21,083 nucleotides of DNA from a virus: positions 1 to 21,083 of IMG/VR virus record IMGVR_UViG_3300034106_002537, one strand, 5' to 3'. This document shows, in pieces, positions 9,354-16,968 of the stretch (the stretch's first letter is position 1; the number at the start of each line of letters is the position of its first letter). The translations under genes and the position numbers were made by a program. Under the pieces are notes generated by a model. The model saw only the letters and a list, made by a program, of their open reading frames with translations, made no database searches and was not told the DNA's origin.

Positions 9354-9823
9354 TGCCTATCCCCTATTATTTCCAATGCTTTAACAGCTTCGTCTAAACT
9401 GGTCACCACGAGATAGACCATGCCGTACCGGTGGCAGCAGTCGCGGAATCTGACTTGGGATTCGGATAGCCTATTGCGTGTTTTTGGCCGTTTGACTTCC
9501 AAGAACACGGCCTTGCCGTTGCGATAGACCACCAAATCCGAGTGCCCGGCAGTGGCGTTGATGTTCGTAACGCGATACGATGACAGCCGTGTTCCGGATT
9601 CAGCTTCCATGGTGCTCGAATTGATCCGCACGACCAAAAAACCGAGCTTTTCAAGACCACCAGCAATATTTCGCTGTATGTCCTGTTCACGCAATGGCCT
9701 TTTTTGGCCGTTTCCAGCCCCGCCACGGCGTTTTTCTGCCTTAAGCCTAGTCCAAGTACGTTCCGAACGTTCATCGGCCTCCCAAATCAATTTGTGGAGA
9801 TCGTCGTCATTCGAATTCAGCAT
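9350..9823 (-). CDS. VRR-NUC domain nuclease
   Basis: 157 residues from the ATG at 9823; a GTG at 9856 would lengthen it by 11 residues. The C-terminal ~110 residues match a VRR-NUC (PD-(D/E)XK) nuclease: REQDIQRNIAGGLEKLG with Glu47, then AGHSDLVVYRNGKAVFLEVKRP with Asp96, Glu109 and Lys111, and LSESQVRFRD with Gln123. In phages such proteins are small nucleases found in replication modules and are thought to resolve or trim branched DNA. The N-terminal ~40 residues are charged and probably flexible. The gene overlaps the upstream unknown gene by 17 bases and the HNH gene by four. Confidence 0.85.
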   Translation of the reverse strand: MLNSNDDDLHKLIWEADERSERTWTRLKAEKRRGGAGNGQKRPLREQDIQRNIAGGLEKLGFLVVRINSSTMEAESGTRLSSYRVTNINATAGHSDLVVYRNGKAVFLEVKRPKTRNRLSESQVRFRDCCHRYGMVYLVVTSLDEAVKALEIIGDRQ

Positions 9824-10373
9824 GGCACACCCATCGCTTGGTGATTGGATCAACACTCCAGACGAACCGATCGATATTCGACCGGTTCATCATCGCAATC
9901 GTGGACTGACGGTCTCCGACGCTTCGCAGATGATCCGCGGCGGCGAGCACCTGATCGGCAGGGATCAGTTCAGCAGGTTGCAAGTCAAAGCCGACCATCT
10001 CGAGGATGTCCTCGGTTTGGGGTTCGAAGGCGTCGCCCATCTCGCAGTTGTGACGCCTAGCGAACCATGCTCCCCAAATGTCCTGTTCTGGGTTGTTACC
10101 CCTGTTATCGGTAAATACATCGTTTCTAAGACTATTACTATAGACTTCTTTTACAGAATCTATCAAACTATGTTTTAAGGTATAACAGGGGGTAACAGAT
10201 GGTGTTAACTGATCCTCGCAAGGCGTTGACAAAACAGGGACTTGCGGCTCGACTACGTAGTTATACGTATCGCCACCTTGACCCATAACAGTACGGGAAA
10301 AATTTTCGTAATCCTTGGGGTCTTGTCCGTATTTCTGCTGAATTCCCGCAATTTTAGAACGAATCCTGCTCAC
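9807..10373 (-). CDS. Unknown protein downstream of primase
   Basis: 188 residues that I do not recognise. The GTG start at 10373 is supported by GGAGG six bases upstream, a very good ribosome-binding site. The N-terminus is basic (MSRIRSKIAGIQQKYG). The middle (SVTPCYTLKHSLIDSVKEVY to RGNNPEQD) lies in a conspicuously AT-rich stretch. The C-terminal half is acidic and helical (FDLQPAELIPADQVLAAADHL) and ends with DRFVWSVDPITKRWVC. No membrane segment and no catalytic motif are evident. It overlaps the primase gene by 20 bases, so it is probably made together with it and may serve in replication. Confidence 0.6.
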   Translation of the reverse strand: MSRIRSKIAGIQQKYGQDPKDYENFSRTVMGQGGDTYNYVVEPQVPVLSTPCEDQLTPSVTPCYTLKHSLIDSVKEVYSNSLRNDVFTDNRGNNPEQDIWGAWFARRHNCEMGDAFEPQTEDILEMVGFDLQPAELIPADQVLAAADHLRSVGDRQSTIAMMNRSNIDRFVWSVDPITKRWVCHAEFE

Positions 10374-14273: not shown

Positions 14274-14936
14274 TTAGAACGGTAGCGAGCCATCGTCTTC
14301 ACTATCGACGACCGGCACGGTGGTGGTGGTTGGCATGGCAGTCGTGGCCTGCGTCTTCGTTTCACTCAGCTTCGGCGTGACCTTACTTGCGAGTTCGGCC
14401 TCGACAAATGCGAGCTGCTTAGTGCTGTCGTACATCGTCTGACCATTGACCATCATAACTTCCAAGTCCGGCAGTTGCGTCTTGGTCGGATCAGGACGCA
14501 TGGACGTGCAATACGGACGCTCCAGTTTGTTACCATTCTGGTAAACGGTCGCCCCGATGATGGTCTTTTTCGGGTTGTCGTCTGGGCTGAATGAATACGG
14601 GACGATCTTAATGGCCTGCTTGCCATCGAAGGCCGGGTTGCACAGTGCCAGGATGATCGTCTTAGCATAGCTCGACGTGTACTTCATCGTCACAACGTAG
14701 CGCTGATCGTCTTCGATGACGATTCGCCACTGCTTGCCGAAGTCACTGTCAGCAGTGCTAATGCTACGGACAATGCCGCTGATGGAATCGGCGACCCATT
14801 CGTAGACGACGTTACCGTCTTTCGTGGTGCGGGTGGTTGTGGACGCGTTCGGTTCCTTATATCGCACCCGAAGTTTGCCCTCCGAGATGGACACATAGAC
14901 CGAGTTGGTGGTGGGGGTTTCTTGATTCAAACCCAT
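14274..14936 (-). CDS. Putative single-stranded DNA-binding protein
   Basis: 220 residues. The first ~150 residues are beta-rich (VYVSISEGKLRVRYKEP, KQWRIVIEDDQRYVVTMKY, IIGATVYQNGNKLERPY), fitting an OB-fold core. A Thr- and Pro-rich flexible stretch follows (ATTAMPTTTTVPVV). The protein ends in the acidic tip DSEDDGSLPF, which matches the acidic ...DxPF tips by which SSB proteins recruit partners. The gene stands beside a PD-(D/E)XK nuclease and upstream of the primase, the expected company of a phage SSB. The start ATG has AGGAGA at a good distance. It is not a plain bacterial SSB, so the call rests on tail, fold pattern and context. Confidence 0.72.
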   Translation of the reverse strand: MGLNQETPTTNSVYVSISEGKLRVRYKEPNASTTTRTTKDGNVVYEWVADSISGIVRSISTADSDFGKQWRIVIEDDQRYVVTMKYTSSYAKTIILALCNPAFDGKQAIKIVPYSFSPDDNPKKTIIGATVYQNGNKLERPYCTSMRPDPTKTQLPDLEVMMVNGQTMYDSTKQLAFVEAELASKVTPKLSETKTQATTAMPTTTTVPVVDSEDDGSLPF

Positions 14937-14970: not shown

Positions 14971-16008
14971 TTAACTGTGCGACTCTATAGCCGCGATTGC
15001 TCTAAAAATTTGTAGTGCTACTTGTGGGACGATTGCGTTTCCATATCCTTTGATGGATTCGTTGCGCCACTTTGGAAAGGTAATTCCGTCCAGTTCACGG
15101 GGAATCCCATCATCTCCGCCACAAATCGGGGTGACAGTTGGGAAGACTTCCCAGTCGGCTGGTATGCCGAAGCTATCGCATCCGTCAGATTTGCCTTGCC
15201 ACGATCTATGCTCGCATTGCCTCGGGCTTCTTGGCATTTTGGCGTTGGAAGCAATCCGCTTTTGGCTAATTGTGGTAAAGCCACGCCAAATCTGACGCCC
15301 TTGCTGTTGACATTCTGCCCAGCCTCGTTGAGATCTCTGTTGCCTCGCGCTAAATCCGATGCTTTGGGCGTGGGCAACAAACGCATCATTTGCACTTGTT
15401 GCGTTAGCCCCACTTGCGCCAGACGGCCCGTGTGCTTGTCGTATGCCCTCTTGCCTATCTCGGCAGGAAATCCCTCCTTCGTTACAAGTCGATCTACTGT
15501 AATTCCTGGCTCCTGCGCCGACGGCGTGTGCAACAAACCAAACTCTATCCCTTCTGTGCGGAGCGCCGACGGCGCAAGCTGGAATAATAAACGGCTGTAC
15601 GGCGTAACCTTCAGCTTCCAGGTCAGCGCACACCTCTTCGAGTACCACGCCCCCGTTCCAATTAATAAGCCCGAAAACATTTTCTGCCACGACCCAGCGC
15701 GGTCTGATCTCTCGAATAGCTCGTAACATGTGGGGCCAGAGGTGACGATCATCGTCTTTCCCTTTGCGCTTGCCTGCCGCGCTGTACGGCTGACAAGGGA
15801 ATCCTCCGGTGAGTATATCGATTCCTCCTCGATGAATAGAGAAGTCTGTCCTTGTGATGTCGTCATAGCTTATAGCCTTCGGCCAGTAGTGGTGTAAGAC
15901 CTTACGTGGGAATTCCATCCATTCGCAATGAAAAACATTTTCCCAACCCATCCATTGCGAGGCGAGATCGAAGCCCCCAATTCCCGAGAATAGACTGCCG
16001 TGCCTCAT
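14971..16008 (-). CDS. dcm: C5-cytosine DNA methyltransferase
   Basis: 345 residues from the ATG at 16008 (CGGAG upstream). Motif I is HGSLFSGIGGFD (3-14), motif IV GGFPCQPYS (68-76) with catalytic Cys72, motif VI AENV (108-111), motif VIII HRRDRVWFVAHA (151-162), and motifs IX-X end in KWRNESIKGYGNAIVPQ (313-329). It adds methyl groups to carbon 5 of cytosine in phage DNA, probably to evade host restriction. The target-recognition region (~165-280) is poor in hydrophobic residues and rich in Arg, Gln and Ser, unlike an ordinary folded domain. A second open frame covers this same region. The gene lies between the exonuclease and the SSB-like gene. Confidence 0.93.
   Translation of the reverse strand: MRHGSLFSGIGGFDLASQWMGWENVFHCEWMEFPRKVLHHYWPKAISYDDITRTDFSIHRGGIDILTGGFPCQPYSAAGKRKGKDDDRHLWPHMLRAIREIRPRWVVAENVFGLINWNGGVVLEEVCADLEAEGYAVQPFIIPACAVGAPHRRDRVWFVAHAVGAGARNYSRSTCNEGGISCRDRQEGIRQAHGPSGASGANATSANDAFVAHAQSIGFSARQQRSQRGWAECQQQGRQIWRGFTTISQKRIASNAKMPRSPRQCEHRSWQGKSDGCDSFGIPADWEVFPTVTPICGGDDGIPRELDGITFPKWRNESIKGYGNAIVPQVALQIFRAIAAIESHS
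15018..15866 (-). CDS. Overlapping 282-codon ORF nested in the methyltransferase gene (+1 frame)
   Basis: The ORF lies wholly inside the cytosine methylase gene, same strand, +1 frame. Its ATG at 15866 has GAAGG nine bases upstream. The product looks protein-like: SGPTCYELFERSDRAGSWQK (43-62), LTWKLKVTPYSRLLFQLAPS (81-100), three repeats LLHTP (111-115), LLPTP (163-167) and LLPTP (205-209), two ARGN copies, SSQLSPRF (241-248) and MMGFPVNWTELPF (252-264). I recall similar LLPTP and MMGFP segments in proteins found with phage and Bacteroidota cytosine methylases; this is memory, not a search. Against it: VAHA and GDDGIP in the methylase frame automatically produce LPT and MMGxP in this frame. 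A real product is plausible, not shown. Confidence 0.5.
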   Translation of the reverse strand: MTTSQGQTSLFIEEESIYSPEDSLVSRTARQASAKGKTMIVTSGPTCYELFERSDRAGSWQKMFSGLLIGTGAWYSKRCALTWKLKVTPYSRLLFQLAPSALRTEGIEFGLLHTPSAQEPGITVDRLVTKEGFPAEIGKRAYDKHTGRLAQVGLTQQVQMMRLLPTPKASDLARGNRDLNEAGQNVNSKGVRFGVALPQLAKSGLLPTPKCQEARGNASIDRGKANLTDAIASAYQPTGKSSQLSPRFVAEMMGFPVNWTELPFQSGATNPSKDMETQSSHK

Positions 16009-16017
16009 TGTGTCTCC

Positions 16018-16059
16018 GTAAAATAATCGCCCCGGCACGCACACACTGCACACCGGGGC
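16018..16059 (-). terminator. Candidate terminator or attenuator before the methylase gene
   Basis: In the minus-strand transcript GCCCCGG (16059-16053) pairs perfectly with CCGGGGC (16035-16029) around a 17-base GT-rich loop. The T-rich GATTATTTTA follows at once. It lies between the exonuclease stop and the methylase ribosome-binding site, so it could reduce methylase expression relative to the exonuclease. The T-run is interrupted and the loop is large, so termination is probably partial. Confidence 0.5.
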
Positions 16060-16065
16060 TTGGGG

Positions 16066-16968
16066 TCAGACCCCGCGCGTAGGGGAAGGCGTCATCTTAG
16101 GGGGAGCAGACGAAGGGCCTTTGGTCGCAGCGGGGCTGTCAAATATACGCGATTGTGTGTTTGCGTATGCTTCAAGAATTACCTGATCGGGATCGATTTC
16201 GACGAAGTGACCATCTCCCGGCAACGTGCCACGGAATATAAACTTCGACTTTGGCTTGCGTTCGTTGGTGAGCTTGAATAGCTCGCTGCGCAGCCGCGGC
16301 ACTTCGGAGTCGACGTTAAACGTGTTCTCCTTCAAGTTGTACGTCGGCGAGCGTCGCCAGTCCTTCGGATGCCAGTTGTAATGACGTTCGACTTGGTACT
16401 CTGGCTTTTTGTAGGCCATCTCATTCCACGCCTGCCGGTACATTTCCGTTTGCACCGCGTGGTCATCGTAAGACGACGAACCGCTCTTGAAATCGATGAT
16501 CGACAAATCGCGGTGGCCGGTCTTCGGGTCGGTCAGCCAGGCGATCAGGTCACACGCTCCGGCATAGCATAGTTCATCGTTCCACAGCATGACCTCGATA
16601 CCGAGCGGCTCGACTTTGTAGTCACGGCAAAACTGGTCGAAGGATAGCAGCGCCTTGCTCTGAAAATCCGTCAGCATAGCCAGCTCAACGTTGTGCCCCT
16701 GCAAGTACCGCTCGAAGTTTAAGTGCATCTCCGTACCGCGTTCTGCGGCTTCGTCTCTGAGCTCGTTAGCGCCGTCGATGCCATGCTTTACATACCACGC
16801 CAGCAGGCCCGGAGGCGTCGGCGAAGTGGCGCGAATGATTGTAGTTACCGATGGATACCAAATGACCTTCCCGCGTTCGTCAACTCGGGCGTATCGGCGA
16901 TCGCCTGCGTTATGGTCGTAGCGGTATAATGGTTCGACGCTGATGGCGTCGTAGATGGATGGTTTCAT
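16066..16968 (-). CDS. PD-(D/E)XK exonuclease, RecB/Cas4-like
   Basis: 300 residues. The core motifs are in the expected order: YPSVTTII (38-45), GTEMHLNFERYL (78-89) with His82, a conserved acidic site in YAGACDLIAWL (135-145, Asp140), SIIDFKSGS (156-164) with Asp159 and Lys161, and QTEMYRQAW (173-181). This is the RecB-like nuclease set, including the late Gln-x-x-x-Tyr motif. In phages such exonucleases process DNA ends for recombination and replication, often with an ssDNA-binding or annealing partner; the SSB-like gene is two genes on. Residues ~205-300 are polar with a Pro- and Ser-rich tail. CGGAG precedes the ATG. Confidence 0.87.
   Translation of the reverse strand: MKPSIYDAISVEPLYRYDHNAGDRRYARVDERGKVIWYPSVTTIIRATSPTPPGLLAWYVKHGIDGANELRDEAAERGTEMHLNFERYLQGHNVELAMLTDFQSKALLSFDQFCRDYKVEPLGIEVMLWNDELCYAGACDLIAWLTDPKTGHRDLSIIDFKSGSSSYDDHAVQTEMYRQAWNEMAYKKPEYQVERHYNWHPKDWRRSPTYNLKENTFNVDSEVPRLRSELFKLTNERKPKSKFIFRGTLPGDGHFVEIDPDQVILEAYANTQSRIFDSPAATKGPSSAPPKMTPSPTRGV

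Follow-up and report, generated by a model that had tools for sequence, protein, structure and literature searches.

Nested genes for the two parts of a cytosine-C5 methyltransferase are already known as a kind from M.EcoHK31I: Lee, Kam and Shaw reportedly described in 1995 that the gene of its small polypeptide is contained, in a different frame, in that of the large one. Of the two polypeptides of this C5 methylase, the large one carries motifs I–VIII and X and the small one motif IX (PMC3404938). In M.AquI, the catalytic and recognition parts are on separate chains, and the small subunit holds motif IX as well as motif X (PMC3404938). Natural and engineered C5 methylases split between motif VIII and the recognition domain are functional (PMC3404938, PMC5944983).

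The depositors of two phage genomes annotated both genes of a pair with the same nested +1 layout as the one described below: gp49/gp50 of Paenibacillus phage Diva ("g49 internal gene") and ORF29/ORF28 of E. coli phage K1ind1 ("Mte8-like protein"). These annotations give no mechanism, and many related records list the outer gene only. The BASEL phages Bas73 and Bas78 of E. coli also have the pair. No paper on nested phage methylases was found in a literature search. Here, an overprinted gene pair of a tailed phage is analysed, which very probably encodes one two-subunit cytosine-C5 methyltransferase.

Organization of the locus

The DNA analysed (the window, 21,083 nucleotides) covers 21 kb of the genome of a tailed phage. 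Its minus-strand genes include those for the terminase, portal, head protease, major head protein, primase/helicase, resolvase and exonuclease. The methylase gene sits between the exonuclease gene (16066–16968) and a gene of unknown function (14274–14936). M.EcoHK31I and M.EaeI belong to bacterial restriction-modification systems, whereas this is a phage gene, and none of the window genes examined was recognised as encoding a restriction enzyme. It should be mentioned that an ORF of 208 codons (9552–10178) is on the plus strand, whereas the phage genes are on the minus strand.

The outer gene (14971–16008, minus strand, as for all features below unless stated; stop codon 14971–14973) encodes α, the large subunit of 345 residues. 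Its start was set at the ATG at 16008 (MRHGSLFSG...) by comparison with relatives, instead of the listed GTG at 16053. The match of α to PF00145 is strong (E = 2.5e-41; 142.6 bits against a cut-off of 22). The inner gene (15018–15866) encodes β, the predicted recognition subunit of 282 residues. It begins with ATG, is in the +1 frame of α and lies wholly within the methylase ORF (14971–16053): the same 849 bases are open in two frames, as the initial annotation had stated. The β protein matches the phrog_1008 profile over residues 19–267 (E = 2.3e-26); nothing matched it in Pfam, NCBIfam, PADLOC or the PDB sequences. The phrog_1008 family, labelled "DNA methyltransferase", contains both nested proteins and C-terminal parts of actinophage enzymes that are made as a single chain, and its label is silent on the nested nature of the subunit.

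Motifs and predicted structures

Comparison with relatives located five motifs in α: motif I (SLFSGIGGFDL, 15964–15996), which is outside the overlap, the catalytic motif IV (GGFPCQPYS, 15781–15807), motif VI (AENVFGL, 15667–15687), motif VIII (HRRDRVW, 15538–15558) and motif X (GYGNAIVPQV, 15019–15048). All five are near-invariant in the relatives. Motif IX, (R)LTPREx..LQGFP, is absent from the α chain, and its counterpart is in β: the segment LSPRFVAEMMGFPVNW (15090–15137), to be compared with the classical RKLTPRECWRLQGFPDW, is near-invariant in 100 sequences. The classical form, (R)KLTPxExWRLQGFPD, was seen in two loci (L213 and L214). This division, with motifs I–VIII and X in α and IX in β, resembles that of M.EcoHK31I and M.EaeI when compared by description, and the nesting of the β gene in the α gene in another frame is likewise what is said of M.EcoHK31I. 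The separation of catalytic and recognition parts into two chains resembles M.AquI, but motif X stays in α here.

In the AlphaFold model of α, the catalytic core and the C-terminal helix are confident, with most blocks of the catalytic domain having pLDDT values above 90, whereas the pLDDT is below 50 for nearly all of residues 175–298. M.HaeIII and M.HhaI were the best Foldseek matches of this model, over the catalytic domain. The PADLOC model DruM2 (PDLC00026) matches residues 20–255 of the 360-residue reading of α, which is further than most other models.

The β sequence contains three LL(H/P)TP repeats (LLHTP, 15522–15536; LLPTP, 15366–15380; LLPTP, 15240–15254), two copies of ARGN, TWKLK and MMGFPVNWTELPF; every element listed for it in the initial annotation was recovered. 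The N-terminal segment SWQKMF...ALTWKLK...LLFQLAPS (15567–15692) is conserved. The number and spacing of the repeats differ between members of the β family, and we propose that the region containing them (15231–15536) reads the DNA target.

Conservation of the nested arrangement

A database search with the β protein, suggested in the initial annotation, gave 73 viral-contig loci and 57 genome loci (mostly of Bacteroidota) among the matches listed; at least 575 related viral-contig stretches were listed, of which 80 were kept. A six-frame profile scan was applied to 209 loci chosen by β motifs, and β was in the +1 frame of α at 201 of them. The eight loci without a nested call consist of six contig ends and two with an in-frame TGA in α. 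Stops in the +1 frame of homologous methylase genes were also looked for: where both genes are present, β is stop-free in 200 of 200 loci and both frames are stop-free in 189 of 200. All 167 distinct loci have β in the +1 frame.

Since these loci had been picked by β motifs, two samples chosen by α motifs only were added. Scanned with the same β profile, relatives of the window α have β in the +1 frame in 80 of 80 cases, and so do relatives of the K1ind1 α (80 of 80), in each case among the matches listed. In these two samples, the median open length of the +2 frame is only 40 and 60 codons.

Some loci deviate in α. In nine loci of Bacteroides or Parabacteroides, α has an in-frame TGA and β is intact. 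These stops are TGA, never TAA or TAG, and several occur where relatives have Trp; α may have decayed there, or the codon may be read through or recoded. The DNA of a flanking record (L417) looks like ordinary Bacteroides sequence in the standard code. Two phage contigs from different samples (L040:2485 and L187:2536) have a 6-base insertion with a stop in the catalytic motif of α (GGFP*PCQPYS), and β is open in both. Four loci (L033, L054, L063 and L175) have two matches to the β profile each; in L063 and L175 both matches are nested in an α, suggesting tandem copies of the pair.

Selection on the two reading frames

Synonymous divergence of α was measured at fourfold-degenerate third positions in 77 non-overlapping sequence pairs. 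Outside β it was 0.475 before the β start and 0.448 after the β stop; within the overlap it was 0.246 in the catalytic part, 0.255 in the middle part and 0.120 in the C-terminal part. The synonymous change of α therefore falls by half or more within the β ORF, which answers the constraint check proposed in the initial annotation. The α-selected sample gave the same picture (28 pairs; flanks 0.422 and 0.430, overlap 0.221, 0.224 and 0.106). The lowest values, 0.11–0.12, are at motif IX of β. At the D-D-G sites of α found in the α-selected sample, codons ended in T in 69 of 69 cases, as the Met-Met of β (MMG) requires, compared with about 60% elsewhere. A corresponding result of 167 out of 167 was set aside, since it was built into the search pattern (MMGFP); the α-selected sample was used instead. 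In the K1ind1 family, a clear synonymous drop is confined to the C-terminal part (0.228 against 0.454); the constraint is weaker in the catalytic part (0.350 against 0.454, with overlapping intervals), and the D codons are without strict bias (48 GAT and 30 GAC).

The ratio ω was obtained for each frame from pairwise counts of substitutions by their effect in that frame, without a tree. It was 0.15 for α and 0.55 for β in the catalytic part, and 0.48 for α and 0.32 for β in the C-terminal part, which contains motif IX. In the middle part (16 pairs), ω was 0.88 for α (CI 0.68–1.22) and 0.23 for β (0.14–0.34); across the estimates, with 16 or 9 pairs, it ranged over 0.88–1.6 for α and 0.09–0.23 for β. 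This shows that both frames are constrained over the catalytic part, whereas in the middle β is strongly constrained and α is near neutral. From the polar, Arg/Gln-rich target-recognition region of the methylase, the initial annotation had supposed that constraint acts there on the nested frame, and the ω values support this. The middle of α therefore looks like an unselected shadow of β: residues 161–298 (15115–15528), with pLDDT values mostly below 50, seem to be filler over the proposed recognition region of β. The predicted recognition domain of M.EcoHK31I is in its large subunit (PMC3404938), whereas here the near-neutral, low-confidence middle of α and the constraint on β at the same bases suggest that it is in β.

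Relatives, the open +1 frame and synonymous constraint together demonstrate dual coding at this locus and its conservation, in agreement with the overprinted gene pair proposed in the initial annotation.

Layouts in actinophages

The initial annotation had stated that some actinophage methylases carry LLPTP and MMGLP in the same frame as GNGVVPQ. This is correct: in Mycobacterium phage WillSterrel, Gordonia phage MelBins and Propionibacterium phage PFR2, an LLPTP...MMGxP block is in frame with the catalytic domain and motif X, the MMGxP motif reading MMMLP in MelBins. In a profile comparison, β columns 114–257 aligned with this in-frame block (97.3%, E = 2.5e-11). Columns 19–127 matched the open +1 frame of the same actinophage genes in hhalign (97.9%, E = 4e-13), so that the conserved N-terminal segment of β has its homologue in that +1 ORF. 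The C-terminal block is in frame in these actinophages and nested elsewhere, and has therefore been read in different frames in different lineages, as had been suggested.

In many actinophage methylases, the N-terminal half of β persists as an open +1 frame although the C-terminal half is fused in frame. In Mycobacterium phage Shygu2 and three further loci (L408, L411 and L412), the catalytic and recognition parts are in different frames, with motifs IX and X together. This layout resembles that of M.AquI, and the Shygu2 sequence is related to the present pair.

The proposed two-subunit enzyme and its alternatives

Going beyond the initial annotation, β looks like a second subunit of the same enzyme and not like an unrelated protein. 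In the proposed model, α would form the large catalytic domain, consisting of motifs I–VIII, a long linker and then the motif X helix packing on the same domain, and β the small domain with target recognition and motif IX. Translation of β would be initiated at an internal ATG near codon 48 of α and proceed in the +1 frame. The two chains would bind each other: α would take the methyl donor and attack the cytosine, and β would pick the DNA site and so set the specificity. Together they may methylate the phage DNA, most likely evading host restriction; such protection seems the likeliest role because no restriction enzyme gene was recognised alongside.

The first alternative is that β is a real protein with another job, for example a regulator or an anti-restriction factor, which merely shares the DNA of the methylase. 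The AlphaFold prediction for β alone was poor (pLDDT 60.6, pTM 0.25) and its model matched no solved structure; because of this, we can only infer a recognition-domain fold for it. However, β carries the signature of motif IX that α is missing, the recognition segment of α itself is under little or no selection, and β always accompanies α: no free-standing β was seen in the loci examined. In addition, the fusion of the C-terminal block in frame to the catalytic domain and motif X in actinophages ties the function of this part of β to the methylase. Taken with these observations, an unrelated job for β is improbable.

The mode of β synthesis allows a second alternative, in which β is made as an α-β fusion by +1 slippage of the ribosome and not from an internal start. 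The GAAGG to which the initial annotation had drawn attention is indeed present 9 bases upstream of the β ATG (GAAGG-N9-ATG, 15864–15880), but its frequency in the window is no higher than chance and it is not conserved in relatives. Shine-Dalgarno-like sequences precede β starts in 20 of 167 relatives, compared with 28% at random positions; this lack of enrichment counts in favour of slippage. The position of the ATG is conserved, by contrast. The β start is ATG in 163 of the 167 loci, at α codon 43–61 in nearly all and mostly at 47–49, and an ATG is at about the same position in 74 of 77 α-selected sequences. Furthermore, α shows no loss of synonymous change upstream of this ATG. Slippage is thus very improbable, and initiation of β at the internal ATG is preferred.

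That the open frame simply follows from base composition or from the α amino acid sequence is hardly credible and a chance ORF was rejected: the catalytic part of α is strongly conserved and an antisense frame over the same region (15022–15726, plus strand, about 234–236 codons) is also long, but synonymous recoding of α puts about 4.6–4.8 stops on average into the β frame and leaves it open in only 0.2–0.5% of trials, 564 stops were expected under this null over 140 relatives and 0 observed, the synonymous loss in both samples is bounded by the β ORF, ω of β is below 1 in every part, and the antisense frame is not conserved (median 112 codons). The initial annotation had considered 282 codons an outlier for this window, which holds: the longest stop-free same-strand shadow frame in 16 other genes of the window is 112 codons. 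The antisense ORF was also considered as a third gene and rejected; it has no match in Pfam, PHROGs or NCBIfam.

Implications

A variant with the proposed recognition region in β and a near-neutral middle of α, and the spread of this variant, have, to our knowledge, not been described. We consider it likely that a large phage-wide family of C5 methylases encodes its recognition half in the frame +1 to that of the catalytic half. More than 100 middle residues of the catalytic subunit would be an unselected shadow, the C-terminal recognition block would have shifted frames in some actinophages, and M.EcoHK31I would be one member of a much larger dual-coding system.

Cellular and DNA-phage genomes have few long same-strand overlaps in which each of the two frames is under selection. 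The nested layout is kept across phages of Bacteroidota, Bacillota, Pseudomonadota and a cyanobacterium, and split or fused versions occur in phages of Actinobacteria; the evolution of two-frame coding is therefore measurable in this family. Probably, many of the phage methylases that are listed as single proteins represent one half of an enzyme; this bears on gene annotation, on the prediction of phage modification and on attempts to express such enzymes. The nested arrangement is old and common in phages, and its second protein is usually missing from genome annotations.
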